Both the position numbers and the translations under genes were made by a program. Below, one piece after another: positions 3,650-16,750 of a stretch of 64,000 nt of DNA (positions are counted from its first letter, which is position 1; every line of letters begins with the position of its first letter). The stretch lies in NCBI RefSeq assembly GCF_007483665.1, contig NZ_ML660190.1:120334-184333 (forward strand), written 5' to 3'. The notes beneath the pieces are model-generated. The model was not told the DNA's origin. It was given only the letters and a program-made list of their open reading frames with translations, and searched no databases. Source of the DNA: Catellatospora sichuanensis. GTDB lineage: Bacteria > Actinomycetota > Actinomycetes > Mycobacteriales > Micromonosporaceae.

Positions 3650-3732
3650 TGGAGAGCGGGGCCGGCCGGATTCGCACCGGCGTCATCCCGTTTGACGACG
3701 GGCGCGACGACTTCTGCGCTACGGCCCCGCTC
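3650..3732 (-). ncRNA. tRNA-like RNA, copy A
   Basis: Read on the minus strand from 3732, it folds as a cloverleaf. GAGCGGGGCCG pairs perfectly with CGGCCCCGCUC (11 bp). UA and a short D arm (GCG/CGC) follow, then a CCCGU/ACGGG anticodon stem with a 6-nt loop CGUCAA (or CCCG/CGGG with 8 nt), five variable bases, and a T arm GCCGG/CCGGC closing UGCGAAU. U-CCA follows the long stem (3653-3650). The D loop lacks the GG pair and the T loop has G at position 55, so the usual tRNA elbow contacts are changed. It could be a degenerate tRNA or a dedicated tRNA mimic. Confidence 0.6.
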
Positions 3733-5017
3733 GCCGGGTGAGTGTAGTGGACCTCTCCTCAGCGCGGGTCCGGCGCAGGGCGCGAAGCCTGCGGAAGAAC
3801 GAAGGCAGGGGCGTGGCACGCACCTCCGCCACCTGGTCGTACCGCGGAGTCGGGCGCAGCGCCGAGGGCAGCCGCCCGAACCGGTCGGTCAGACCGGGGT
3901 CCGCGCCCGCCTCGTGCAGCGCCGCCACCACGTCGTCGGCCTGGGCCCGCTCGGCGTGGTGCAGCGGCGTGCCGCCTTCCTTGTCCCGGCCGTTCACGGG
4001 CAGGCCCGCGGCGAGCAGCCGGGGCAGCAGCCGCTCGTGGTCGAGCCGGGCCAGCAGGTGCAGCAGGGTCACCCCGCCGGTGCCGACCACGGCGGGGTCG
4101 AACCCGGCGTCCAGCATCGACAGCACCAGGTCGGTGCGCCCCGCCCGCGCACAGCGGAACAGGCGGTCCCGCTGCGGGCGCAGCGCCCTGGGCAGGCGGC
4201 CGTGGCCGGTGTGCCAGCCGCGCAGCACCGCCGCGCAGCCCTGCACCGGACCGCCCAGCGCGCCGAGTGCCAGTTCCCGCTGGATCTCCGCCTCGGTGTG
4301 CGCCATGGCGACCAGGCGGCCGTCGCGCACCTGCATCTCGTGCCACACGCTCGCGCAGCGCACCCGCACCGCGGGGAACTCCCAGGCCTGCTCGGCGGGC
4401 ACCTGGACCGTGCCGGGGTGCAGCGCCGCGAAGACCAGCGGGTGCAGGTCGTGTGCGGTCACGGCACCCGTGCGCAGGGCCCACCTGTCGGCCTCGGTCT
4501 GTGGCTGCTCGCTCGCGTACGCCTCGGCCCGGGCCGTGACCGCGTCGGCGCGCCAGCACCACACGGGCAGCGCCCGCCAGTAAACGGGCAGGCGGTCCGG
4601 GGCGACGACGGCCAGGTGCGCGCCGCGCCGCTCCTGCGCCGACCCCGGCGGGGTGAGCGCGAGCACCGGCTCGGCCGGCAGCCGCACCGGACTGGCCTCG
4701 ACCCTGTCCGGGGCGGCGGCCAGGTCGGTCAGCACGACATAGCCGGGCCACGAGGGCGAGTTGCGAAAGTCCGTCGGGAGGTAGCTCCGCAGCAGGTCGG
4801 GAGCGAGCTGGGCCAGCGCGGCCCTGATCCGGAGCGCGGCCGCCGCACCGTAGGCCACCTCCACCTCGACGAGGTCGACGTCGGGAGTCAGCCCGGCAAC
4901 CCGGCACGCCCCTGCCCAGTCGCCCGCCTCCCGCAGCCGGGCGCACTCGGCGACCGTCGACCGGGCCGGATGGTGCAGCAGCATCCGGCCGAGAAGGTCG
5001 CCCCCCACCTCTGCCAT
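3719..5017 (-). CDS. Ankyrin-repeat protein, copy B of the tRNA-like/ankyrin module
   Basis: A 432-residue paralog of copy A, collinear over its full length. It has the same N-terminal region (CARLREAGDWAGACRVAG...LAPDLLRSYL), the same PVWCWRADA and RCASVWHEMQV middle, and C-terminal ankyrin repeats. A roughly 45-residue Arg-rich C-terminal extension is absent from copy A. GGGGAGGA precedes the ATG at 5017, which lies 29 nt after the CCA end of tRNA-like copy B. The last codons run into copy A's RNA: the final Ala-Gly-Pro and the UAG stop are read from the first bases of its 11-bp stem. Function unknown; probably cytoplasmic and protein-binding. Confidence 0.85.
   Translation of the reverse strand: MAEVGGDLLGRMLLHHPARSTVAECARLREAGDWAGACRVAGLTPDVDLVEVEVAYGAAAALRIRAALAQLAPDLLRSYLPTDFRNSPSWPGYVVLTDLAAAPDRVEASPVRLPAEPVLALTPPGSAQERRGAHLAVVAPDRLPVYWRALPVWCWRADAVTARAEAYASEQPQTEADRWALRTGAVTAHDLHPLVFAALHPGTVQVPAEQAWEFPAVRVRCASVWHEMQVRDGRLVAMAHTEAEIQRELALGALGGPVQGCAAVLRGWHTGHGRLPRALRPQRDRLFRCARAGRTDLVLSMLDAGFDPAVVGTGGVTLLHLLARLDHERLLPRLLAAGLPVNGRDKEGGTPLHHAERAQADDVVAALHEAGADPGLTDRFGRLPSALRPTPRYDQVAEVRATPLPSFFRRLRALRRTRAEERSTTLTRRAGP
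3741..3746 (-). promoter_or_regulatory. -10 element of tRNA-like copy A
   Basis: TACACT on the minus strand (TANNNT type) ends 8 nt before the first base of the 11-bp stem, so transcription would begin at or next to the RNA's own 5' end. The motif CACTA(C/A)ACT is shared with copy B. No convincing -35 is seen. The element lies inside the end of ankyrin gene B. Confidence 0.45.
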
Positions 5018-5046
5018 GGACGACGTCCTCCCCGCGCGCCGGTTCT

Positions 5047-5130
5047 TGGGGAGCGGGGCCGACCGGATTCGCACCGGCGTCATCCCGCTTGTTGGACGGG
5101 CGCGACGACTTCTGCGCTACGGCCCCGCTC
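5047..5130 (-). ncRNA. tRNA-like RNA, copy B
   Basis: It matches copy A base for base outside the anticodon region, except for one T-stem change (a G-C pair becomes G-U). It has the same 11-bp terminal stem, D arm, five-base variable region and UGCGAAU T loop. The anticodon stem is CCCGU/GCGGG (one U-G pair) with a regular 7-nt loop CCAACAA. A three-base reading of the loop centre is AAC, but position 33 is C rather than the near-universal U. C-CCA follows the stem (5050-5047). Ankyrin gene B begins 29 nt downstream. A charged tRNA is not assured; a tRNA mimic or leader element fits equally well. Confidence 0.6.
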
Positions 5131-5137
5131 GCCGGGC

Positions 5138-5143
5138 AGTTTA
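5138..5143 (-). promoter_or_regulatory. -10 element of tRNA-like copy B
   Basis: TAAACT on the minus strand ends 7 nt before the first base of the tRNA-like stem at 5130, again placing the predicted start on the RNA's first nucleotide. The rest of the gap up to 5300 is GC-rich with no other feature recognised. Confidence 0.45.
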
Positions 5144-6885: not shown

Positions 6886-7362
6886 TCAGGCCCGGTACTG
6901 GTCGTGGCGGGCGAACAGGTCGGTCCACTCCTCCTCCGACAGTTGCCGCCCGGTGGCGGAGATGTCGGCGAGCTCGCGGAAGTACTTCTCTCTCGGGATG
7001 CCGGGCGCGAACAGGATGAGCATCGAGGCGGCGGCGCCGCTGTCATTGCGGAAGCCGTGCAAGCCGCCCTCCGGCACATGCAGGAAGTCGCCTGCCGAGG
7101 CGGCCACCCAGCGCGCGCCGTCGAACAGGCTGACCGTGCCGGTCATGACGTAGAAGGACTCCGAGAAGGTGCGGTGGAAGTGCGCGTCGGCCCCGCCCGC
7201 GCCGGCCGGCATCTGCCATTCGTAGAGGCCGAATCGGCCCTGGGTGACGCTGCCCGGCGCCAGGAACCGGGCGGTCGAGCCGGAGCCCATGACGGCCTGC
7301 TCCGCATCGGCGGAGGGGTGGTACGCGGCGCTGATCGCGCCGGAGTCGCCCGTGTAGGTCAT
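6886..7362 (-). CDS. Single-domain cupin protein
   Basis: A 158-residue cupin. The core reads ADAHFHRTFSESFYVMTGTVSLFDG (first cupin motif, with His, His and Glu metal-ligand candidates) and later GDFLHVPEGGLHGFRN (second motif). Such proteins are often small-molecule dioxygenases, isomerases or binding proteins. GAGGGAGAGG precedes the ATG. It is divergent from a MarR regulator with an AT-rich inverted repeat between them, so it is the likely regulatory target. Substrate unknown. Confidence 0.82.
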   Translation of the reverse strand: MTYTGDSGAISAAYHPSADAEQAVMGSGSTARFLAPGSVTQGRFGLYEWQMPAGAGGADAHFHRTFSESFYVMTGTVSLFDGARWVAASAGDFLHVPEGGLHGFRNDSGAAASMLILFAPGIPREKYFRELADISATGRQLSEEEWTDLFARHDQYRA

Positions 7363-7382
7363 GGCTGCCTCTCCCTCGAAAT

Positions 7383-7411
7383 TAGCTTATATGTAACTTA
7401 CCACTAAGCTA
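7383..7411. promoter_or_regulatory. MarR operator candidate between cupin and marR
   Basis: TAGCTTA (7383-7389) and TAAGCTA (7405-7411) form perfect arms with a 15-bp spacer, in the AT-rich 75-bp divergent gap. The position would let the MarR protein control both genes. AT content and symmetry are typical of MarR-family sites. Confidence 0.55.
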
Positions 7412-7437
7412 GTTTCCGTCAAGCTATCATTCCCGCC

Positions 7438-7932
7438 ATGAGCAGGGACGCCGTCGACGCGATCATCGACCAGTGGCGCGCCGAGCGCCCCGACCTCGAC
7501 GATCTGCTGCCCATGGAGGTCTTCGGGCGGGTCTACCGGGTCGCCGCGGCGATCGGCGACCGCATGGAGCGCGCCTACCAGCGCCTCGGCATCGGCCGGG
7601 GCGAGTTCGACGTGCTGGCCACGCTGCGCCGCGCCGGGGAGCCCTTCAACCTCTCCCCCAAGCAGCTGTCCGACACCCTGATGCTCACCACCGGCGGCAT
7701 GACCGGGCGGCTGGACAAGCTGGAGAAGGCCGGGCTCATCTCTCGTACGCCCGATCCGGGCGACCGGCGCTCGCTGCGCGCCCAGCTCACCCCGGCGGGC
7801 CGCGAGCTGATCGACGAGGCGGTCGCGGCCGGGCTGGCCGTGCAGCGCGAGGCGCTGAGCCGGCTGGATCCCGCCGACGCCCGCCGCCTGGGCGACCTGC
7901 TGCGCGAACTCGCCGCCGCGGTCACTCGCTGA
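7438..7932 (+). CDS. MarR family transcriptional regulator
   Basis: A 164-residue winged-helix regulator. Helices from about residue 25 lead to FDVLATLRRAGEPFNLSPKQLSDTLMLTTGGMTGRLDKLEKAGLISR (helix-turn-helix), with the wing at DPGDRRSLRAQLTPAG and a C-terminal dimerisation helix. It is transcribed divergently from the cupin gene. Members usually repress neighbouring genes and release DNA when a phenolic or other small ligand binds. The ligand is not predictable. Confidence 0.9.
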   Translation: MSRDAVDAIIDQWRAERPDLDDLLPMEVFGRVYRVAAAIGDRMERAYQRLGIGRGEFDVLATLRRAGEPFNLSPKQLSDTLMLTTGGMTGRLDKLEKAGLISRTPDPGDRRSLRAQLTPAGRELIDEAVAAGLAVQREALSRLDPADARRLGDLLRELAAAVTR

Positions 7933-7938
7933 GCGGGC

Positions 7939-8316
7939 TCAGTGCCGGACGAGGCAGAACGGGTGGCCGGCGGGGTCGGCGTACACGCGCCAGCTCTGCC
8001 CCGGCGAGCCCGCGTCGAGCACGGCCGCGCCGCACGCCAGCACCTCCTCCTCGGCGGTGTCCAGATCCGGCACACCGAAGTCCAGGTGGAACTGCTGCGG
8101 CTTGCTGGGGTCCGGCCACTGCGGAGCCTGGTATTCGGCGACCCGCTGGAACGCGAGCACCAATCCGTTGGGGGCGTGCAGCGTCGACCAGTCGTCACCC
8201 AGTGACCAGCGCCGGTCCGGCTGGTTGACCACGCCGCCGAGCAGCGACCGGTAGAACTCGGCGAGCCGCTTCGGGTCACGGCAGTCCAACACCACGCACT
8301 GCAGTTCAGCGAGCAT
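7939..8316 (-). CDS. VOC superfamily (glyoxalase-like) protein
   Basis: A 125-residue single VOC unit with two beta-alpha-beta-beta-beta halves. It opens LQCVVLDCRDPKRLAEFY, has the middle FHLDFGVPDLDTAEEEV and ends VYADPAGHPFCLV. The family covers glyoxalases, ring-cleaving dioxygenases and fosfomycin or bleomycin resistance proteins; this short form is usually unassigned. It is convergent with marR, with 6 bp between the stops. The 218 bp upstream hold no gene I can recognise. Confidence 0.8.
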   Translation of the reverse strand: MLAELQCVVLDCRDPKRLAEFYRSLLGGVVNQPDRRWSLGDDWSTLHAPNGLVLAFQRVAEYQAPQWPDPSKPQQFHLDFGVPDLDTAEEEVLACGAAVLDAGSPGQSWRVYADPAGHPFCLVRH

Positions 8317-8534
8317 GGCCCGATCCTAGGCGGTCGCGCCCACGCGGGCTCCGTGCAGCGGAACGGCGTACGCCGCCGGCAGGGACGCCGTCCGCGCTCA
8401 CGCGCGCCCCGTGTCCGTCGTCGGCACGACGCGGCCGGTCACCGGCCCGCGGCAGGCAACAGTTCCCCTGGGCTTCGCCGCGGCGACTCCCGCTCTTCGT
8501 CTCGACTCCCGGCGGCGGACCTAGCGTGGCGGCC

Positions 8535-9698
8535 ATGCGCGTGGCGATCATCACCGAGTCGTTCTCCCCGGACGTCAACGGCGTCGCGAACTCCGTCGCC
8601 CGCGTCGCGGAGCACCTGCTCGCGCGCGGTCATGAGCCGCTGGTCGTCGCGCCGAAGCCGGCGCCGAGGCCGAGCCGCACCAGCACCGCCAAGCCCTACC
8701 CCGTGGTACGGCTGGGCTCGCTGCCGATGCCCGGGTACGGCAACGTGCGGCTGGCCTGGCCGACCCGCCGGATCCGGGAGGCGCTCGCCGAGCACCAGGC
8801 GGACGTGGTGCACCTGGCCAGCCCGTTCGTGCTCGGCGCCTGGGGCGCGAAAGCCGCCGCCGACCTCGGCATCCCCGTCGTCGCGATCTACCAGACCGAC
8901 GTGCCCGGCTACGCCCGCGCCTACCGGGTGACCACCGGGGAGGCGCTGGCCTGGCGCTGGATCCGCCACGTGCACGGCCGCGCCGCGCTCACCCTCGCCC
9001 CGTCGTCGACGACCGCCGCCGAGCTCGTCGCGCACGGCGTGCCCAACGTCGGCCGGTGGGGCCGCGGCGTCGACGCCGAGCTGTTCCACCCGTCACGCCG
9101 CGACGACGCGCTGCGCGCCGAACTCGCCCCCGGCGGCGAGCTGATCGTCGGCTACGTCGGCCGGCTCGCCCGGGAGAAGCGGGTGGACCTGCTCGCGCAG
9201 ACCGCCGCACTGCCCGGGGTGCGGGTGGTCGTGGTCGGGGACGGCCCGACCCGCGGAGCCGTGCGCCGCGCCGTGCCCCAGGCCGCGTTTCTGGGCACCC
9301 GCCGCGGCACCGACCTGGCCCGGCTGTATGCCAGCCTCGACGTGTTCGTCCACACCGGACCGCACGAGACGTTCTGCCAGACCGTGCAGGAGGCCCAGGC
9401 CAGCGGCGTGCCCGTGGTCGCCCCCGCGATCGGCGGCCCGCTCGACCTGGTCCGCCACGGCGTCGACGGGCTGCTGGTGACCCCGAACGACGCCGACGGG
9501 TTCGCCGCGGCGGTCGGTGCACTCGCCGACCCGGCCGTGCGCCGCGCCTACGGGCAGGCGGCCCGCGCTGCGGTGTCCAGCCGGACCTGGTCCGCGCTGG
9601 GCGACGAGCTGATCGGCCACTACGCCACCGCGGCCGCCGCGGTGCGCTCCCCCGGCCGCCTCGCCGCACCCGTCGCCGTGCCGGTGCACGCCCCGTGA
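8535..9698 (+). CDS. GT4 glycosyltransferase (MgtA-like, GDP-mannose dependent)
   Basis: A 387-residue GT-B glycosyltransferase. The N-terminal domain starts MRVAIITESFSPDVNGVANSV, the signature of the alpha-mannosyltransferase group around mycobacterial MgtA and PimB. The C-terminal domain has GYVGRLAREKRVDLL, VVVGDGPTRGAV and HTGPHETFCQTVQEAQASGVPVVAP, which includes the EX7E-type donor site. ATG at 8535 is preferred to a GTG three codons earlier. The stop overlaps the start of the next glycosyltransferase, so the two are translationally coupled. A glycolipid or lipoglycan acceptor at the membrane is likely. Confidence 0.82.
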   Translation: MRVAIITESFSPDVNGVANSVARVAEHLLARGHEPLVVAPKPAPRPSRTSTAKPYPVVRLGSLPMPGYGNVRLAWPTRRIREALAEHQADVVHLASPFVLGAWGAKAAADLGIPVVAIYQTDVPGYARAYRVTTGEALAWRWIRHVHGRAALTLAPSSTTAAELVAHGVPNVGRWGRGVDAELFHPSRRDDALRAELAPGGELIVGYVGRLAREKRVDLLAQTAALPGVRVVVVGDGPTRGAVRRAVPQAAFLGTRRGTDLARLYASLDVFVHTGPHETFCQTVQEAQASGVPVVAPAIGGPLDLVRHGVDGLLVTPNDADGFAAAVGALADPAVRRAYGQAARAAVSSRTWSALGDELIGHYATAAAAVRSPGRLAAPVAVPVHAP

Positions 9699-10831
9699 CC
9701 GGGCTGCGCATCGTCCGGCTGGCCAACTTCGTCACGCCCAGCTCCGGCGGCCTGCGCACCGCGCTGCGCGAGCTGGGTCGCGGGTACGCCGCAGCCGGGC
9801 ACGAGCCGGTGCTGATCATCCCCGGCCCCGGACACGCCGACGAGCTGACCGAGCAGGGCCGCGTGATCACCCTGCCCGGCCCGATCGCGCCCGGCCTGGG
9901 CGGCGGCTACCGGATGCTGGTGCGCCGCAGGCCGCTGGCCGACCTGCTGACGGACCTGGCCCCGGACCGGATCGAGGTGTCCGACCGCACCACGCTGCGC
10001 TGGACCGGCGCCTGGGCCCGCCGCCACGGTGTGCCGTCGGTGATGGTGTCGCACGAGAGCGTCGACGGCCTGCTCGGCGTCGTGAAGCTGCCCGCCGCGG
10101 TGCGCTCGCGTATCGCCGCCGGGCTCAACCGCGCCAGCGCCGCAGCGTACGACCGGATCGTCTGCACGACCGCCTGGGCTGTCGGCGAGTTCACCGGCGT
10201 CGGCGCGCACAACGTCACGCAGGTGCCGCTCGGCGTCGACCTCGACCTGTTCCGCCCCGACCGCCGCGACCCCCTGGTGCGCGGCGTGCACGTGTCGTCC
10301 GGGGAGTTGCTGCTGGTCTGCTGCGTACGCCTGTCGCCGGAGAAGCGGCCCGAACGTGCGCTGACGACGCTGCGCACGCTGCTCGACCGCGGGGTCGCCG
10401 CCCGGCTCGTGATCGCGGGCGACGGACCGCTGCGGTCCCGGTTGCAGACCGCAGCCGCGGGACTGCCCGTCTCGTTCAGCGGCTGGATCAGCGACCGGCA
10501 GGAACTGGCGGCCCTGCTGGCCGGCGCGGACCTGGTGCTGGCGCCCGGTCCGATGGAGACGTTCGGACTTGCCGCTCTGGAGGCCCTGGCCTGCGGGACC
10601 CCGGCTGTGGTGAGCGTATCCAGCGCGCTGCCCGCGGTTGTCGGCGACGCCGGCGTCGCGGTCGCGGGCGAGGACCTCGCCGACGGGGTGTTGCAACTAC
10701 TCGACCGCGACGAGCAGCACCGCCGCGACGCCGCCCGCGCCCGCGCCGAACACTTCGGCTGGGACGCCGCCGTACGCGCCTTCCTCGACGTGCACACCGC
10801 CCTCGACCCAGCCGCCGTTCACCCGGGCTGA
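9695..10831 (+). CDS. GT4 glycosyltransferase, second of a coupled pair
   Basis: A 378-residue GT-B glycosyltransferase whose GTG start overlaps the previous stop (GTGA). It opens LRIVRLANFVTPSSGGLRTAL and contains VCCVRLSPEKRPERAL, VIAGDGPLRSRL and PGPMETFGLAALEALACGTPAVV (retaining GT4 donor-site motifs). Such pairs recur in actinomycetes and probably add successive sugars to one membrane acceptor. The sugar and acceptor cannot be read from sequence. It is convergent with the lower-GC nucleotidyltransferase, 6 bp apart. Confidence 0.82.
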   Translation: MTGLRIVRLANFVTPSSGGLRTALRELGRGYAAAGHEPVLIIPGPGHADELTEQGRVITLPGPIAPGLGGGYRMLVRRRPLADLLTDLAPDRIEVSDRTTLRWTGAWARRHGVPSVMVSHESVDGLLGVVKLPAAVRSRIAAGLNRASAAAYDRIVCTTAWAVGEFTGVGAHNVTQVPLGVDLDLFRPDRRDPLVRGVHVSSGELLLVCCVRLSPEKRPERALTTLRTLLDRGVAARLVIAGDGPLRSRLQTAAAGLPVSFSGWISDRQELAALLAGADLVLAPGPMETFGLAALEALACGTPAVVSVSSALPAVVGDAGVAVAGEDLADGVLQLLDRDEQHRRDAARARAEHFGWDAAVRAFLDVHTALDPAAVHPG

Positions 10832-10837
10832 ACTCGG

Positions 10838-11545
10838 TCAGGTGTCGGCGTGAACCGCATCGCGTCGTTCGTGGCCGAGCACACTCAGTTGACGGAGCCA
10901 GGAGACCATTGCCGGCAATTCCTCGGCGAAGTCGAGTTCTCGAGCGCGGATGACCTTGGCCGCCATGGGAAATCCCGGTGTGATGTACTCGAATACGTGT
11001 CCCTGGCTGTGTCCTAGACGAGTGGTGAGCGGGTCATAGTTGACGAGGCCAGACCATTCGTACATGCCCTGCCGGTCTTGCGCGGTATAGCGCACGGCTC
11101 CGGTCGCCATCAAATGATCGCCGAGTTGAGTAGTCCTGACGCTCACAGGATCAACGCTCGTCAGCGGCACGATTCCCGCCGTGTCGACTTCGCGGCACAG
11201 CATCATCCGGATGTCTGCCGGATGAACAATGAGATCCGCTGGAAGCGACAGCACGCGTCCGAATGCAAGAGCGGCGCCCTTGATGAGGGTGGCGGCCGCA
11301 CCCGTGGTCTCGTATGTGGAATTCACCACAAAGGCAACGTCTGACCTCACCGCGCGCGCCTCAGCCATGACCTGTTCAGACTGGTATCCCAGTCCGACGA
11401 CCACGGGCGTGTCACGCGGGAGCAACTCCAATTGCCACCTGATCAACGACTTCCCGTCGACCTCGACAAGTGCCTTGTTCCGACCCATCCCGAGACGACT
11501 TCCGCGGCCTCCGGCACTGATGACTATGGTTGTGGGAACCGACAC
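10838..11545 (-). CDS. Nucleotidyltransferase (sugar/polyol-phosphate type)
   Basis: A 235-residue Rossmann-like NTP transferase. The nucleotide loop is ISAGGRGSRLGMGRNKALVEVDGKSLI near the N-terminus, with the PADLIVHPADI metal region further on. Such enzymes make NDP-sugars, CDP-glycerol, CDP-ribitol or CDP-choline. Its partner downstream in the same cassette resembles CDP-glycerol glycerophosphotransferases, so a CDP-activated polyol is a reasonable guess. Codon use and local GC are clearly lower than in the flanking glycosyltransferases, suggesting acquired DNA. Confidence 0.72.
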   Translation of the reverse strand: MSVPTTIVISAGGRGSRLGMGRNKALVEVDGKSLIRWQLELLPRDTPVVVGLGYQSEQVMAEARAVRSDVAFVVNSTYETTGAAATLIKGAALAFGRVLSLPADLIVHPADIRMMLCREVDTAGIVPLTSVDPVSVRTTQLGDHLMATGAVRYTAQDRQGMYEWSGLVNYDPLTTRLGHSQGHVFEYITPGFPMAAKVIRARELDFAEELPAMVSWLRQLSVLGHERRDAVHADT

Positions 11546-11686
11546 AGCCTACCTCTGACGTAGAAGAACAGTCCGGGACGCCCGGAAGCGGCCCGCGTCG
11601 ACTATTCGATGCAAAAGATGATGGATATCCGACTGCGCGGAGCCGGGGAATTCGTGGTCTGCCGGCACCCTCACCCATCAAATCAT

Positions 11687-12916
11687 TCAATGCCTGGCCT
11701 GAGCCGGTGTCCGGGTCGGCTGCCAACACCGCCTGGCTCGCGAAACGATCGTGTCAGCCGGCAGGGCTGCCTTCCAGATGTCGACCGGGCTGCTCGCGAG
11801 TGTGGGGTGAATCCGCCGCGAGGCTTCCGCTCTCCCCGGGCTCGCGGTCACAGCTCCGGCTGACCATTTTTGCAACCACTCGGATATTTCCGAGCCGTTT
11901 GCGGCAACCTCCGCCACGGACACCAGCGCCTCTCCGTCATCGTTGAATCGAGGAGAGGCGGAATCCCTGATGACCACCAGGGGTTTTCCTGTCGCGGACC
12001 AGTAGGCGATAATGGAGATGCCATCCGTCACGAGCGCGTCGCAGCGGAGGATGTCGTCGACCATGCTGCTTGTCGACACCTCCACATTGGGTAGTGCGAG
12101 GAGCTCGCGAATGACCTCGACGGCCCATCCGTCCGTTGCCATGTCAATGCTCTTCGCCGCTTCCCGGTGCGCAACAGACGTCGCGCCGTCCAGATAGGAC
12201 TCAAGAGCCATCTTGAAGATCGGGTGCGGCCGGAACACCAGGTGATCGGACGGCCGGGATTTCTTCCAGTCCAGCATGGCGCCAGCTGATTCCTGCCAGC
12301 GGCTGTAACCACGGCTGCCGTCCCACAATGTCTTCGTCCAGTGCGGAGCCCAAAGTAATTTCGCACCATCATCCCGGGCGGGGCCGGCATGACTCAAACG
12401 ATCCCGCAGTTCCCATAGCAATGGGTTGCCGGACAGCAGCACATCTGCGTTCGGGCTGTTGGCCGCGTAACCATCGAGTTCATACTTGCCCGCAGCCAAC
12501 AGGTAAGACGATGCCAAGATCGGATCAGTGCGGAAATGGCCGTGCGTCCACGTCGAGAGCGGGAGACCATAGCCCGCATAAGCCAGCGAGAAGCTGTCCG
12601 CGCAGTCGAAGAACCAGGCGGGATAGTGCTCGGGATATGGCGACTGGAGGAACACGGCGGCTGACCTTGAGTCTGCGACATGCCGGCGCAATTGCTCTGC
12701 GTCCTGGACCACGGTCGCCTTGGCGATTCCTTCAATGGCCCGGGCATCAAGATCGAAGTTCGAATTCCCGAAGGTCAGGTAACACGTCGTCATGCCGGCC
12801 GCTGAAGCCTGTCGATCGATGGCGATCAGGTGTTCAACCGTCGCGACAGGCAATGCCGCCAGGCATACGTGACCGGACCATCGATCTCGGAGCGACCGCA
12901 TACTCAGCACGCTCAC
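11687..12916 (-). CDS. CDP-glycerol glycerophosphotransferase-like protein
   Basis: A 409-residue protein with features of the TagB/TagF-like (Glyphos_transf) group. LLWAPHWTKTLWDG and HLVFRPHPIFK correspond to the conserved phosphate/His region, and CDALVTDGISIIAYWSATGKPLVV to the second conserved motif. Members transfer polyol-phosphate units in teichoic-acid or capsule synthesis on the inner face of the membrane. It is upstream of the nucleotidyltransferase on the same strand, with a 141-bp gap. Base composition is lower-GC than its neighbours. The exact reaction is inferred from distant motifs. Confidence 0.62.
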   Translation of the reverse strand: MSVLSMRSLRDRWSGHVCLAALPVATVEHLIAIDRQASAAGMTTCYLTFGNSNFDLDARAIEGIAKATVVQDAEQLRRHVADSRSAAVFLQSPYPEHYPAWFFDCADSFSLAYAGYGLPLSTWTHGHFRTDPILASSYLLAAGKYELDGYAANSPNADVLLSGNPLLWELRDRLSHAGPARDDGAKLLWAPHWTKTLWDGSRGYSRWQESAGAMLDWKKSRPSDHLVFRPHPIFKMALESYLDGATSVAHREAAKSIDMATDGWAVEVIRELLALPNVEVSTSSMVDDILRCDALVTDGISIIAYWSATGKPLVVIRDSASPRFNDDGEALVSVAEVAANGSEISEWLQKWSAGAVTASPGRAEASRRIHPTLASSPVDIWKAALPADTIVSRARRCWQPTRTPAQARH

Positions 12917-13270
12917 GCTGCATTACCTCCTCCACCGGGGATCGGGATCGTAGCAGAACGCAAATGGCACTCGCGGTTGACCAGAGGAGGAGCAGGCCCG
13001 GTCGAGGCCGAGAACGCCAACGACCCGGCTGCTCCAAGGTCTGGGAGGATCCATCGGAAGATGCTGCGGTCCATACCGGGCGTGCGCCGGATGTGGTCAG
13101 TCTGCATGCGGGCCGTAAACGCGGCCTCAGCGACCTGCGTTCGAGCCGCGGCGGTCGGGTTCGCATGGGTGGTCGACGTTAGAGTCGTAACCGTGCCACC
13201 TCGGTCAGCCAGCAGCAGAGACGCCAACCGCGCACCCCGGGTGCCGGCGAGGCCGAAGCCGCCGTCAGCC
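12917..13270. other. Intergenic region without a convincing gene
   Basis: This 354-bp divergent gap separates the lower-GC cassette from the pentapeptide-repeat gene. Open frames cross it on both strands but none has a ribosome-binding site, recognisable motif or good codon bias. It presumably holds promoters for both flanking genes. No clear operator was seen. Confidence 0.5.
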
Positions 13271-13885
13271 ATGGACACGGCGCTGTCGCCGGATCACGAC
13301 CTGGAGGACGAGGCCACGTTCCGGCGGCTCGCGTTCCTCGACCTCGACCTGAACGGGCAGGCCGCCGACTCGGCCGAGTTCGAGCAGTGCCGCTTCACCC
13401 GCACCGGCCTCGCCCGCACCGTGCTGGAACGGGCGATGTTCACCGACTGCCTGGTGGAGACCTCGGACTGGGCGAACCTCAAGGCGACCAAGTCGGGTCT
13501 CCTGCGCGTCGAGGTGTCGCTGGCCCGGCTGACCGGCCTGCAGTGGATCGACGGCTCGCTGCGCGACGTGACGTTCCGGGAGTGCCGGATGGACCTGGCG
13601 ACGTTCCGGTTCACCTCGTTCAAGGACGTCGCCTTCACCGACTGCAACCTGACCCGGGCCGACTTCACCAGCGCCGACCTGCGCGGGGCGTCGTTCACCG
13701 GCTGCGACCTGTCGGGCGCGCAGTTCGCGCAGGCCGACTGCGCCGGAGCCCGGTTCATCCGCTGCGAGCTGGGCGGCATCGGCAGTGTGACGAGCCTCAA
13801 GGGAGCCGTGGTGAGCGCGCACGACCTGGCCGGCCTGGCGCACACCCTCGCCGCGGCGCTGGACATCACCATCGACGAGGGCTGA
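13271..13885 (+). CDS. Pentapeptide-repeat protein
   Basis: A 204-residue protein made largely of A(D/N)LXX-type pentapeptide repeats forming a right-handed quadrilateral beta-helix. Examples are FEQCRFTRTGLARTVLERAMFTDC, MDLATFRFTSFKDVAFTDC, LTRADFTSADLRGASFTGCDLSGAQF and QADCAGARFIRCELGG. Some family members, such as Qnr and MfpA, protect DNA gyrase; most have no known role. The ATG at 13271 has only a weak upstream purine stretch. No export signal is present. Confidence 0.83.
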   Translation: MDTALSPDHDLEDEATFRRLAFLDLDLNGQAADSAEFEQCRFTRTGLARTVLERAMFTDCLVETSDWANLKATKSGLLRVEVSLARLTGLQWIDGSLRDVTFRECRMDLATFRFTSFKDVAFTDCNLTRADFTSADLRGASFTGCDLSGAQFAQADCAGARFIRCELGGIGSVTSLKGAVVSAHDLAGLAHTLAAALDITIDEG

Positions 13886-13976
13886 CCGGCTGCCGGACGC
13901 GAGCGGCAACCCTGCGGCCACGGCTGGTTGGCGGTGCCGTCGTCTGCCGTACACCGCCTGCTGGCACCCTGCCTGG

Positions 13977-15545
13977 GTGCTGTCCGCCATCCGGTTGCCC
14001 GACGAGACCCGCCGCTGCCTCGTGCTGGGCTTCGCCGGTTCCACGGCGCTGGCGGGCGGCGGCCTCGCGGCGGGCGCGCTGCCGGTGCGTGACACCCTCG
14101 CGCCCGCGCTGGGTCTGGGCGAGCTGCGCCAGCACCAGGGCATCGGCCTGGTCTGCGCCTACTTCGGCCTGGCGCTGCTGGTCGCCGCCTGGTGGCGGCT
14201 GGGCGGGGCGGTACGCGGCGGCGACCCGCCCGCGCCCCGCGGCCTGCTGCTCGTCCTCGCGGCCTGGGCGCTGCCGCTGGTGGCGATGCCGCCGCTGTTC
14301 AGCCGCGACGTGTACAGCTACCTGGCGCAGGGCGCGATGGTCACGGCCGGGCTCGACGTCTACGAGGCGGGCCCGGCGGCGATGGGCGGGCCGCTGCCGG
14401 CCGAGGTGCCCGCGATCTGGCAGCACACCCCGACGCCGTACGGGCCGGCGTTCCTGTCCCTGGCCGCCGGGGTGTCCGGGTTCGCCGCGACCGACGTGCC
14501 GTTGGGCGTGTTCGGCATGCGGGCCGTCGCGCTGGCCGGGATCGTGTTGCTCATCGTCTGCCTGCCCCGGTTGGCCCTGGCCTGCGGGGTGGACCCGGCC
14601 GCGGCGCTGTGGCTGGGCGCGCTGAACCCGCTGGTGCTGCTGCACCTGGTCAGCGGTGCGCACAATGACGCCGTCATGCTGGGCCTGCTCATCGCAGGGC
14701 TGACCGCCGCGGCAGCGAGCCGCTTCGCCCTGGCCACCGTCGCGGTCACCCTCGCCTGCCTCGTGAAGGCCCCGGCCGCACTCGGCCTGGTGGTCGTGGT
14801 CTGGCTCTGGCAACACTCGCTGCGACAACCGTCAGGCCCGCGGCCGTCCCCGGTGGAGCCCTCCCGTCCGCCGAACCGGCCGTCGTCGCCCAGCGCACCG
14901 GCGGAGCCGCCGCCGGGCCGCCCGGCTTTCGGCCGTCGGACGGCCACGCTGCGGGCGCTGGCGCTGACGGCCGGGCTGGCGGCGGCGACTACGGCGCTGG
15001 TGACCGCCGTGACGGGTACGGGCTACGGGTGGGTGCGCTCGCTTTCGACGCCGATCTCGGCGCACAACTGGTCGCTGAGCAGCACCGTCGGCAGGATCAC
15101 CCGGAACCTGCTGGAGGCGGCGGGCAGCGACCTGGCCGCGTCGGCGATTCCGGCGTGGCGGTGGACCGGGCTGGTCGCCGCGGCCGCGGCGACGCTGCTC
15201 GCCTGGCATCACCGCCGACGGCTCGGCCTGGTGTACGCGCTCGGTTTGAGCCTGGCCGCGCTGGCCCTGCTCGGCCCGGCCCTGCGCCCCTGGTACCTGC
15301 TGTGGGGCCTGGTGCCGATCGCCGCGGCCGCGCCGCCGAACGGGCGGGTGCGCCGCTGGACCGCGCTCGCCTGCCTGGCCCTGACCGTGACCGTGTTCCC
15401 GAGCGGTTTCACCCCGTCCGCGGACGAGCTGGCCGCGGCGGTGGCCGGGGCGCTGCTGGCCGTGCCGGTGGTCTTCCTGTTCACCAGCGACATCGTCCCC
15501 GCAGCGGTGCGCCCCTACCGAGGAACGGAACCCGCCGCATGGTGA
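13977..15545 (+). CDS. GT-C mannosyltransferase, MptB-like
   Basis: A 522-residue polytopic membrane protein with about twelve hydrophobic segments and a Pro/Ser-rich cytoplasmic stretch near residues 280-320. The extracytoplasmic loop near residue 110 holds FSRDVYSYLAQGAMV, with the acidic residue expected of polyprenol-phosphate-sugar-dependent GT-C enzymes, and HTPTPYGPAF follows. This matches polyprenol-phosphomannose-dependent alpha-1,6-mannosyltransferases (MptA/MptB), which build lipomannan-type backbones outside the membrane. Start is GTG. It overlaps the next gene by 7 nt, so both probably act on the same glycan. Confidence 0.8.
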   Translation: MLSAIRLPDETRRCLVLGFAGSTALAGGGLAAGALPVRDTLAPALGLGELRQHQGIGLVCAYFGLALLVAAWWRLGGAVRGGDPPAPRGLLLVLAAWALPLVAMPPLFSRDVYSYLAQGAMVTAGLDVYEAGPAAMGGPLPAEVPAIWQHTPTPYGPAFLSLAAGVSGFAATDVPLGVFGMRAVALAGIVLLIVCLPRLALACGVDPAAALWLGALNPLVLLHLVSGAHNDAVMLGLLIAGLTAAAASRFALATVAVTLACLVKAPAALGLVVVVWLWQHSLRQPSGPRPSPVEPSRPPNRPSSPSAPAEPPPGRPAFGRRTATLRALALTAGLAAATTALVTAVTGTGYGWVRSLSTPISAHNWSLSSTVGRITRNLLEAAGSDLAASAIPAWRWTGLVAAAAATLLAWHHRRRLGLVYALGLSLAALALLGPALRPWYLLWGLVPIAAAAPPNGRVRRWTALACLALTVTVFPSGFTPSADELAAAVAGALLAVPVVFLFTSDIVPAAVRPYRGTEPAAW

Positions 15546-16750
15546 AGACCTCCCGCGCCCGCCTGCTCTGCGTGCTCCTGCTGGCCACCGCCGTCGGCCT
15601 GTTCATCGCGCTGATCCCGGGGCACCGTGGCTGGTTCGACGTGCTGGTCTACTACGGCACCGTCGACGACTGGGTGCACGAGGGCGGCGTGATCTACGAC
15701 TACCTGGTGCCGGGCACCCACTACGGCTTCACGTACCCGCCGTTCGCGGCCGTGGCGATGCTGCCGATGAGCCTGCTCGGCTGGCACACGGTCATCGCGG
15801 TGAACGTGGCGCTGACGGCCGTGGCCTGCGCGTTCCTGCTGTACTGGTTGGTCGATCCGATCGCCCGGGAGCAGCGGTGGCCGCGGCTGTTCGCCTTCGG
15901 GATCGCCGCGTGCCTGCTCGCGGCGTTGCAACCGGCTCGCGACACGGTCAGCTTCGGGCAGGTCAACCTGCTGCTCGTCGCGCTGGTGCTCGCCGACGCC
16001 CGGCTGCTGACGAGCGGTCGGAGCCGCTGGGCGGGCGTCGGCATCGGGATCGCCGCCGCGATCAAGCTCACCCCTGCGATCTTCATCGGGTATCTGCTGC
16101 TGGCCGGGCGGCGGCGAGCCGCCGTGATCGCGACCGGAACCGCAGCGGCCGCGACGCTGCTGGCGGCGCTGATCGCGCCGGGTCCGTCGTGGCGGTTCTG
16201 GACCGAGACGCTCGGCGACACCAGCCGGGTCGGCGACCTGTTCTACATCTCGAACCAGTCGCTGCGCGGGGTGATCGCCCGCCTGGACCCCGATTCGCCG
16301 CATCCGGTGTTCTGGCTGCTCACGGTGGTGGGTGTGCTGGCGCTGTGGGCTTGGCGGGTGCGCCGGGCCGCCCGCGCCGGCGACGTCTGGGGCGGGTTCG
16401 CGCTCACCGGTCTCGCCGCCTGCCTGGTCAGCCCGGTCACCTGGGTGCACCACCTGGTCTGGGTGGTGCCCGCGCTGGTCCTCGTGATCGGCGCGGGGCT
16501 GCGCGAGCCGGACCCGGCGCGCCGTCGGCGGCTGCTGTGGTCGGCCGGGGCCGCGTACGTGATCCTGTGCAGCAGCGTGGTGTGGCTGTGGTGGTACGAC
16601 TTCTCCGGCCCCGGGGGCTTCCTGGGCGGGAGCGCGTACGTCTGGATCACGCTCGGCCTGCTCGTCCTCCTGCCGCTGCGCTCGCCGACGCCCACCGTTC
16701 ACCGAGCGGCGGCGCAAGAGTCGATCACCGTACGCGCCGTCCGGTCATGA
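15539..16750 (+). CDS. GT87-type mannosyltransferase
   Basis: A 403-residue polytopic membrane protein of the GT87 (PimE-like, DUF2029) family. The first loop carries YYGTVDDWVHEGGVIYDY and GFTYPPFAAVAMLPM, with the conserved aspartate and the TYPPF motif. LTPAIFIGYLL and SNQSLRGV also fit the family. Such enzymes transfer mannose from polyprenol-phosphomannose to lipoglycans. Translation is coupled to the MptB-like gene by overlap. Specificity (alpha-1,2 in PimE) is only inferred. Confidence 0.8.
   Translation: MVKTSRARLLCVLLLATAVGLFIALIPGHRGWFDVLVYYGTVDDWVHEGGVIYDYLVPGTHYGFTYPPFAAVAMLPMSLLGWHTVIAVNVALTAVACAFLLYWLVDPIAREQRWPRLFAFGIAACLLAALQPARDTVSFGQVNLLLVALVLADARLLTSGRSRWAGVGIGIAAAIKLTPAIFIGYLLLAGRRRAAVIATGTAAAATLLAALIAPGPSWRFWTETLGDTSRVGDLFYISNQSLRGVIARLDPDSPHPVFWLLTVVGVLALWAWRVRRAARAGDVWGGFALTGLAACLVSPVTWVHHLVWVVPALVLVIGAGLREPDPARRRRLLWSAGAAYVILCSSVVWLWWYDFSGPGGFLGGSAYVWITLGLLVLLPLRSPTPTVHRAAAQESITVRAVRS

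Follow-up and report, generated by a model that had tools for sequence, protein, structure and literature searches.

Two tRNA-like RNAs, RNA1 and RNA2, lie close together in a 64,000-nucleotide stretch of the Catellatospora sichuanensis genome (contig NZ_ML660190.1, positions 120,334 to 184,333; hereafter the window), and they raise the question of why two near-identical tRNA scaffolds should carry different anticodon loops. The tRNA fold is used outside translation in the tRNA-like modules of YrlA/Y RNAs and in viral tRNA-like structures. A preliminary description of this DNA had offered three accounts of the pair, a dedicated tRNA mimic, an odd tRNA, or decaying pseudo-tRNAs; the first fits best. 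The reading that we favor, which falls just short of an even chance, is that the RNAs are dedicated tRNA mimics and form the RNA part of a conserved actinobacterial LRR/ankyrin (ANK)/MoxR system, with the variable arm perhaps serving as bait.

Two near-identical RNAs, each followed by an ankyrin gene

The sequence confirms the main structural points of the preliminary description: the two RNAs share an 11-bp terminal stem, the D arm, the variable region and the T arm, and their anticodon loops read CGUCAA and CCAACAA. They differ in the anticodon arm, in one T-stem change (G-C to G-U) and in the base after the stem; everything else, including the other T-arm positions, is identical. An ankyrin-repeat gene, preceded by a good ribosome site, comes after each RNA (ANK1 after RNA1, ANK2 after RNA2), and the end of the ANK2 reading frame overlaps the 5' end of RNA1. 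That description did not extend to these ankyrin genes, the operon in relatives, the covariation of A18 with G55, or the hypervariability of the anticodon arm, each of which is described here. The ANK1 and ANK2 proteins are 64% identical, and since the RNAs are near-identical the tandem looks like a duplicated RNA-gene unit in which the RNA body was held constant.

ARAGORN called both RNAs as tRNAs, one without a valid anticodon, and the Rfam tRNA covariance model scored them at 47.5 and 44.3 bits (cut-off, 29); a whole-window Rfam scan with fast filters listed RNA2 alone. Both depart from a canonical elongator tRNA in the acceptor stem (11 bp rather than an unextended 7 bp), in the anticodon loop (6 nt in RNA1 and C33 in RNA2, rather than 7 nt with U33) and in the elbow (A18/G55 rather than G18-U55). 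Single-sequence minimum-energy folds kept the 11-bp stem and lost the inner cloverleaf, which counts against the observation; the cloverleaf rests on comparison, not on energy. The occurrence of two tRNA-like RNAs is nonetheless real and more than chance, given their near identity beside proteins that are 64% identical and the family-wide tests of stem, elbow and −10 element presented below.

An RNA family with an extended acceptor stem

A tRNA scan and an ankyrin search of the window genome (G000) recovered two further RNAs with the same scaffold, one on contig C5 directly before an ankyrin gene and the other on contig C17 before an SDR-LRR-ankyrin-MoxR-DUF2201 cluster. A covariance model (R1) was built from the four RNAs and run over 200 genomes of the bacterial family. 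At an E value of ≤0.01 every genome (200/200) gave a match, presumably because ordinary tRNAs reach about 1e-8, so that only stronger matches were counted. At ≤1e-11 there were matches, not each of them inspected, in 56 of the 200 genomes, including all 11 of the window's genus. An alignment (A3) of 74 matches (68 distinct) was then taken from 45 of 66 loci and used for a second model, R2; the loci omitted (L001-L008, L012-L015, L017, L028-L030, L035, L036, L038, L039, L044) for the most part repeated, over a shorter span, regions that had also been taken at greater length. R2 matched 25 of 394 genomes of the class at ≤1e-11, one of them (G460) through an ordinary tRNA-Pro. By covariance model the family spans five actinobacterial families; no phage DNA similar to RNA2 was found at E ≤ 0.01. 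Ordinary tRNAs were dropped from the pooled counts (L164:15136-, L164:15338+, L130) and from the within-locus anticodon count (L255:11775 and 11895), and a degenerate RNA, L165:14003, was dropped from the extra-pair, CCA and within-locus anticodon counts.

The preliminary description had proposed testing homologous loci for covariation of the 11-bp stem, and compensatory changes were indeed found. In A3, 143 cells of the 11-pair stem and the other helices were changed on both sides, compared with 37 in shuffles; none of 500 shuffles reached the observed value on any measure, and sliding the partner strand destroyed the signal. Beyond the seven usual pairs, column 4-84 holds C-G 41 times and G-C 20 times, and column 2-86 holds G-C 35, C-G 8, A-U 7 and U-A 2 times; column 3-85 hardly departs from G-C, and 26 of the 68 sequences form the eleventh pair. 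At least three contiguous pairs beyond seven occur in 135 of 163 distinct family RNAs, compared with 1 of 57 predicted G000 tRNAs, so that the acceptor/T stack measures at least 15 bp in those 135. On this comparative evidence the extended stem is real.

Both ends of the RNA were then compared across the family. N-CCA stands directly 3' of the 11-bp stem in both window RNAs, as had been described; as a family-defining trait it was rejected, since only 9 of 163 family RNAs encode CCA there, and 22 of 163 encode it at the usual position. The TANNNT −10 elements reported for the window are present (Table 1), and the motif ends 4 to 10 nt before the first base of the stem in 176 of 185 distinct upstream sequences (mode, 6 nt), while six control windows of equal width held it in 0 to 2 of 185 each. 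To judge from this fixed spacing, transcription most likely begins at the base of the extended stem, and RNase P would be unneeded at the 5' end.

Positions 18 and 55 covary

The window RNAs carry A18 and G55, from which it had been concluded that the normal elbow contacts are lost. The bases are as described; the conclusion does not hold, because the two positions change together: of 164 distinct RNAs, 149 have G18/U55 and 14 have A18/G55, and the one odd case is the degenerate L165:14003, with G55 but, by eye, G18. In A3 the division is 57 G/U to 11 A/G of 68, and three D-loop contexts (AGAAG, AGCAG and AGGAG) accompany G55; these counts are of sequences, not of events. By comparison across the family, the window RNAs have a covarying A18/G55 variant in place of the usual elbow pair rather than a mere loss of it. 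To our knowledge, this exchange is an unusual natural variant of the tRNA elbow. The ankyrin proteins encoded directly after A18/G55 RNAs, ANK1 and ANK2 among them, fall on a single branch (4 rows, support 99) of a tree in which 27 of 117 rows were labelled.

A fifth family RNA of the window genome (contig C19, L047:6854-6934) is also of the A18/G55 type; it has a Cys-like loop, CUGCACA, and lies beside ABC transporter genes. No ankyrin gene was predicted in this 14-kb locus.

The RNAs usually head a conserved operon

A scan of named genomes with an LRR alignment kept 80 of 162 loci, each with one LRR gene, in which R2 found 111 RNAs and two ordinary tRNAs; all 111 RNAs are on the strand of the LRR gene. 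At least one RNA was found in 78 of the 80 loci; in 77 it precedes the LRR gene on the same strand, and in L185 it is inside the operon. The upstream RNA is within 400 nt of the LRR gene in 48 loci and in the others lies mostly beyond an SDR or ANK gene. No RNA was found in L137, but only 590 bp precede the LRR gene there. The usual gene order is RNA(s)-(SDR)-LRR-ANK(s)-MoxR-DUF2201; some loci are one gene short or have a gene that was not predicted, gene prediction having overlooked a number of genes, such as SDR and LRR in L064. Operons occur in Micromonospora, Actinoplanes, Catellatospora, Hamadaea, Streptomyces, Kitasatospora, Nocardiopsis, Herbidospora, Planotetraspora, Actinomadura, Thermomonospora and others, and a locus may hold several RNAs, with six in Nocardiopsis (L178) and four each in L142 and L181.

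Among the 394 class genomes an LRR gene was found at E ≤ 1e-60 in 18, of which 16 are among the 25 with an RNA match; in the remaining two (G458 and G551) RNAs scoring 64 to 69 bits adjoin the LRR gene. The window holds two satellite RNA-ANK units, before ANK genes only, and the full operon of the same genome is on contig C17. Judged from gene neighborhood, the parts of the system would be the RNA or RNAs, an optional SDR, an LRR protein, one or more ankyrin proteins, a MoxR-type AAA ATPase and a DUF2201 metallopeptidase/VWA-like protein. Pfam searches of the operon proteins gave AAA_5, DUF2201_N and DUF2201 (VWA-like) above the cut-off, and VWA_2 and bpMoxR below it (bpMoxR, 22.7 against 27). 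PADLOC returned weak matches restricted to AAA or ankyrin stretches (RtcR, PDC-M54A, PDC-M72A, Ankyrin and MzaA), and the LRR protein had no match in PLSDB plasmids at E ≤ 1e-40. One RNA family with a fixed gene partnership thereby takes the place of isolated, puzzling tRNA calls in Micromonospora, Actinoplanes, Catellatospora, Streptomyces, Nocardiopsis and other genera.

Several loci depart from or add to this arrangement. Two tandem family RNAs stand directly before SDR and LRR genes in L064:6168-8877. A DUF4132 gene (L010:1642-2574) lies beside the full operon on C17, and a similar gene lies beside the operon in the same-genus locus L065 (cluster c11). A distant second version was seen in genus g70, which is probably Streptomyces, several of its operon loci having 80 to 90% DNA identity to named Streptomyces loci: its RNAs lie near SDR and LRR genes in L244-L247 and near an SDR gene alone in L256. 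The RNAs of L247 and L256 are in tandem, and several of the five loci also encode a DUF2201_N protein and a large AAA protein close by. The same genus has Trp-like orphan RNAs in L249, L251, L252 and L254, with the loop CUCCAAA or CUCCAGA in a 6-bp arm; no operon genes were predicted within about 8 kb of these.

The anticodon arm is the variable part

RNAs at equivalent places were compared by taking from each locus the RNA that most closely precedes the first SDR or LRR gene, which was possible in 76 of the 80 loci (63 distinct RNAs); L137 and L200 have no RNA, L185 has none upstream, and L143 has no predicted LRR or SDR gene. Mean entropies were 0.09 bits for the D arm, 0.10 for the variable region and 0.19 for the T arm, with 0.63 for the compensated acceptor stem and 0.64 to 1.04 for the anticodon arm. 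The anticodons fall into 14 anticodon/loop classes, AUC (38 loci), UGC (12), CUC (5), AGC (5) and GUC (4) together with UCC, UUC, CGC and 6-nt loops, and the single difference between the same-genus copies L020 and L027 is one anticodon-loop base. Of the 127 distinct arms, 53 have the canonical form, with U33 in a 7-nt loop and at least four pairs, and 74 do not. As far as sequence comparison goes, what the family conserves is its body together with the operon, not the anticodon.

Some arms resemble those of host tRNAs, for which the loops of the 60 predicted tRNAs of one genome, G000, were used. Seventeen of 109 seven-nucleotide loops equal a G000 loop, where column shuffling gives an expectation of 5.8; for the 81 loops with at least four pairs, 10.3 host matches were expected when the flanks were shuffled as blocks (P = 0.0015), and such P values are only a guide because related sequences are not independent. 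In three genomes the complete 17-nt arm of a family RNA is that of a tRNA of the same genome, tRNA-Glu-CUC in G173 and G389 and tRNA-Asp-GUC in G067.

Two regularities were seen in L136-L215. The RNAs 5' of LRR or SDR genes have C at position 36 with few exceptions (entropy, 0.12 bits), so that their loops look like those of tRNAs that read GNN codons. Bases 32 and 33 (GC) could, by eye, pair with bases 39 and 40 (GC) in many of the RNAs, leaving a 5-nt loop.

A relative reported to decode, and other known systems

The closest described RNA is tRNA-Asp-AUC from a desert Streptomyces, which the accessible text of Chen et al. 2022 (PMC9262613) places in 32 of 4649 streptomycete genomes, stating no homologues in other sequenced organisms. 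It has a purine at position 32, C33 and a weak anticodon stem (an arm with three G:C pairs), and LRR, 'PE-PGRS', MoxR and hypothetical genes lie 3' of it (PMC9262613). Most of the Streptomyces loci among L160-L214 show the same 3' cluster and anticodon, the purine 32/C33 and, by eye, the weak stem, and named Streptomyces loci likewise have their RNA 5' of LRR-ANK-MoxR-DUF2201. Because these marks fit, tRNA-Asp-AUC is almost certainly a family member, matched by its description and not by its sequence. To the RNA as described in the accessible text, the family adds the extended stem, the variable anticodon, the arrays, the A18/G55 variants and the spread over five families; the AUC anticodon itself is absent from the window loops. 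The same report describes tRNA-Asp-AUC as constitutive, at a level equal to tRNA-Asp-GUC, represented in small-RNA reads and able to rescue a GAU-rich reporter, credits it with raising antibiotic yields, and suggests an ancestral integrative element (PMC9262613). Decoding by a family member finds its strongest support in these experiments, which also show that such an RNA accumulates. The RNA gains a different context here, one in which its anticodon is not what evolution conserves.

Other known systems share single features with the family. Acceptor/T stacks measure 7+5 bp in ordinary tRNAs and 13 bp in tRNASec, and an acceptor of 8 rather than 7 bp weakens EF-Tu binding of tRNASec 100-fold (PMC7609411). 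tRNASec (8/5 and 9/4) and allo-tRNAs are, like the family, tRNA scaffolds with a lengthened acceptor domain; in the accessible part of that source they do not exceed 13 bp, whereas the stack of at least 15 bp in 135 of 163 family RNAs comes with a variable anticodon and operon linkage. The MoxR-vWA conflict systems of Kaur et al. 2020 (PMC7159879) combine a MoxR ATPase with a VWA-like or metallopeptidase protein, a pairing that the operon may share, and also occur in filamentous actinobacteria; the accessible text names no ankyrin, SDR or DUF2201, with tRNA and LRR appearing in reference titles only. Unlike those systems, the operon has an RNA as a regular part, and its bpMoxR match is below the cut-off; the LRR and ANK proteins are no more than candidates for a third, variable effector or recognition component of the MoxR-vWA type. 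A description of the family together with the LRR/ANK/MoxR system was not found in the open-access literature, a search that left most subscription journals uncovered. If these RNAs are indeed mimics acting with LRR and ankyrin proteins, they would represent an undescribed RNA-protein system that is testable in laboratory streptomycetes.

A tentative model and its rivals

Decoding is probably not the main role of the RNAs, to judge from their sequences, and binding to protein through the constant body is somewhat more likely than the contrary; a bait role for the anticodon arm is doubtful and is the most speculative part. In the model, a tRNA scaffold whose acceptor of at least 10 bp is stacked on a 5-bp T stem, an element supported by comparison, would be bound by the system's own proteins, the N-terminal domain of ANK and/or the LRR protein, and this binding would keep the RNA out of translation. 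The variable arm, copied from the anticodon arm of a host tRNA, might serve as bait, so that an agent cutting or modifying that tRNA (an anticodon nuclease, a phage or a rival toxin) would also alter the bait, and the altered RNA-ANK/LRR complex would then switch on the MoxR-DUF2201 module. A bolder form, which we consider rather unlikely, is a sentinel with a repertoire of RNA baits. In it, a single protein-binding body would carry interchangeable copies of host anticodon arms, an ankyrin protein would accompany each bait, and the LRR/MoxR/metallopeptidase module would fire when the copied tRNA is damaged or seized. Such a sentinel would do with RNA what the 'integrated decoy' principle describes in plant immunity.

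A number of results weigh against the mimic model or its bait component. The related tRNA-Asp-AUC is reported to decode GAU in S. coelicolor (PMC9262613, accessible text). RNA and operon do not always go together: the operon of L200 (Virgisporangium) has no RNA above 14 bits in positions 7000-16000 with filters off; contig C18 of G000 has ANK-MoxR-DUF2201 (L011:37-3918) and no family RNA by ARAGORN or R1 in the 8-kb locus; and 9 of the 25 RNA-matching class genomes lack an LRR match at E ≤ 1e-60, G460 among them being the ordinary tRNA-Pro and G405 having an SDR gene beside its RNA array. Exact copies of a G000 loop are limited to those 17 of 109, and six of them are Trp loops from five genomes of one genus and similar rows, so that they are not independent; in two further genomes tested, G405 and G458, no host arm was identical to that of the mimic. 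In the best-conserved member, which is the RNA preceding the LRR gene, the arm is mostly weak and shifted. Diversity within a locus does not exceed that of the pool, with the same anticodon in 5 of 95 pairs against 4.3 expected (the arm reading being off by one base for some second-version RNAs), so that a panel of deliberately different anticodons at each locus is unsupported. The A18/G55 exchange may have occurred once and then been kept, since its ankyrin proteins share one branch.

Four other accounts have to be set beside the mimic model. The RNAs could be working, if unusual, tRNAs that are trimmed to a 7-bp acceptor, charged and used for extra or rewired codon reading, as proposed for tRNA-Asp-AUC; we regard this as unlikely. 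The earlier suggestion of an odd tRNA holds as far as ancestry goes, given the match to the Rfam tRNA model, and it gains from the 53 of 127 canonical arms and from the expression and GAU-rich reporter rescue described for a relative whose cluster, anticodon and arm match, by eye, those of the Streptomyces loci among L160-L214 (PMC9262613). Against it stand the 74 arms without a canonical loop or stem, the restriction of AUC to 38 of 76 equivalent places, the rarity of encoded CCA at either position and, in 135 of 163 RNAs, an extension of at least 3 bp where a single base pair weakens EF-Tu binding of tRNASec (PMC7609411). An equal and likewise low probability attaches to a cis-acting 5' leader, a tRNA-like fold at the head of the ANK, SDR or LRR mRNA that would control processing or translation through, for example, RNase P/Z cutting or the binding of a tRNA-binding protein. 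The −10 element places the start at the first base of the RNA and the predicted start of the next operon gene is often just 15 to 90 nt or so downstream, so RNA and gene are likely one transcript; T runs are scarce after the RNA (13 of 177 have TTTT within 40 nt). Tandem copies with a −10 element each, and orphans with no operon gene after them, speak against a leader, and a pure leader leaves both the hypervariable arm and the host-arm copies unexplained.

Less probable still is a structural or guide RNA of an LRR/ANK complex, whose arm would pair with or select a target other than an attacker of host tRNA, such as another RNA. A constant body with a variable arm would suit this role, as would the association of the A18/G55 type with one ANK branch and, by eye, of a GCG type with another; the variable arms are short hairpins, however, and three equal host tRNA arms exactly. 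Least probable by far are the decaying pseudo-tRNAs of the preliminary description, or tRNA attachment sites left by integrative elements. A tool call without a valid anticodon and the ancestral integrative element suggested in the accessible text of PMC9262613 point that way. Covariation with compensatory stem changes, a −10 element in 176 of 185 upstream sequences, a near-invariant D arm and an operon conserved across five families refute decay as a general account, and the Pfam matches of the scanned conserved operon genes include no integrase (flanks were not searched for integrases). Single degenerate copies such as L165:14003 may be decaying.

Features of the window

Table 1. Positions of the two RNA-ankyrin units, counted from the first base of the window
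Feature	Position	Strand	Remarks
RNA2, tRNA-like	5050..5130	minus	103.3 bits with model R1; anticodon loop CCAACAA
RNA2 11-bp terminal stem	5120-5130 paired with 5051-5061	minus	
RNA2 −10 element TAAACT	5138..5143	minus	7 nt before first base of stem
RNA2 D arm	5102-5117	minus	D loop holds A18
RNA2 anticodon arm CCCGT-CCAACAA-GCGGG	5084..5100	minus	hypervariable part in family
RNA2 T arm, G55, loop TGCGAAT	5062..5078	minus	G55 covaries with A18 in D loop
ANK2 ankyrin-repeat gene, 432 aa	3719..5017	minus	start about 30 nt 3' of RNA2; GGGGAGGA before ATG
RNA1, tRNA-like	3653..3732	minus	101.2 bits with model R1; loop CGUCAA (6 nt)
RNA1 11-bp terminal stem	3722-3732 paired with 3654-3664	minus	
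RNA1 −10 element TACACT	3741..3746	minus	8 nt before first base of stem
RNA1 anticodon arm CCCGT-CGTCAA-ACGGG	3687..3702	minus	
RNA1 CCA	3650-3652	minus	
ANK1 ankyrin-repeat gene, 386 aa	2461..3621	minus	start about 30 nt 3' of RNA1; AGGAGGAG before ATG

The structure of ANK1 was predicted with a pLDDT of 90 and a pTM of 0.83. Its N-terminal 286 residues (pLDDT, 87.6) had no significant fold match in the PDB (best E value, 1.4, among the best 50 of 101 matches), and among the 60 matches listed by a profile search there were ankyrin repeats at the C-terminal end of this domain alone; as a guess, the domain is a candidate for the RNA-binding part. The C-terminal ankyrin repeats matched DARPins in the fold search, and the 50 matches listed for full-length ANK1 are, judged by their titles, ankyrin or DARPin chains or fusions.

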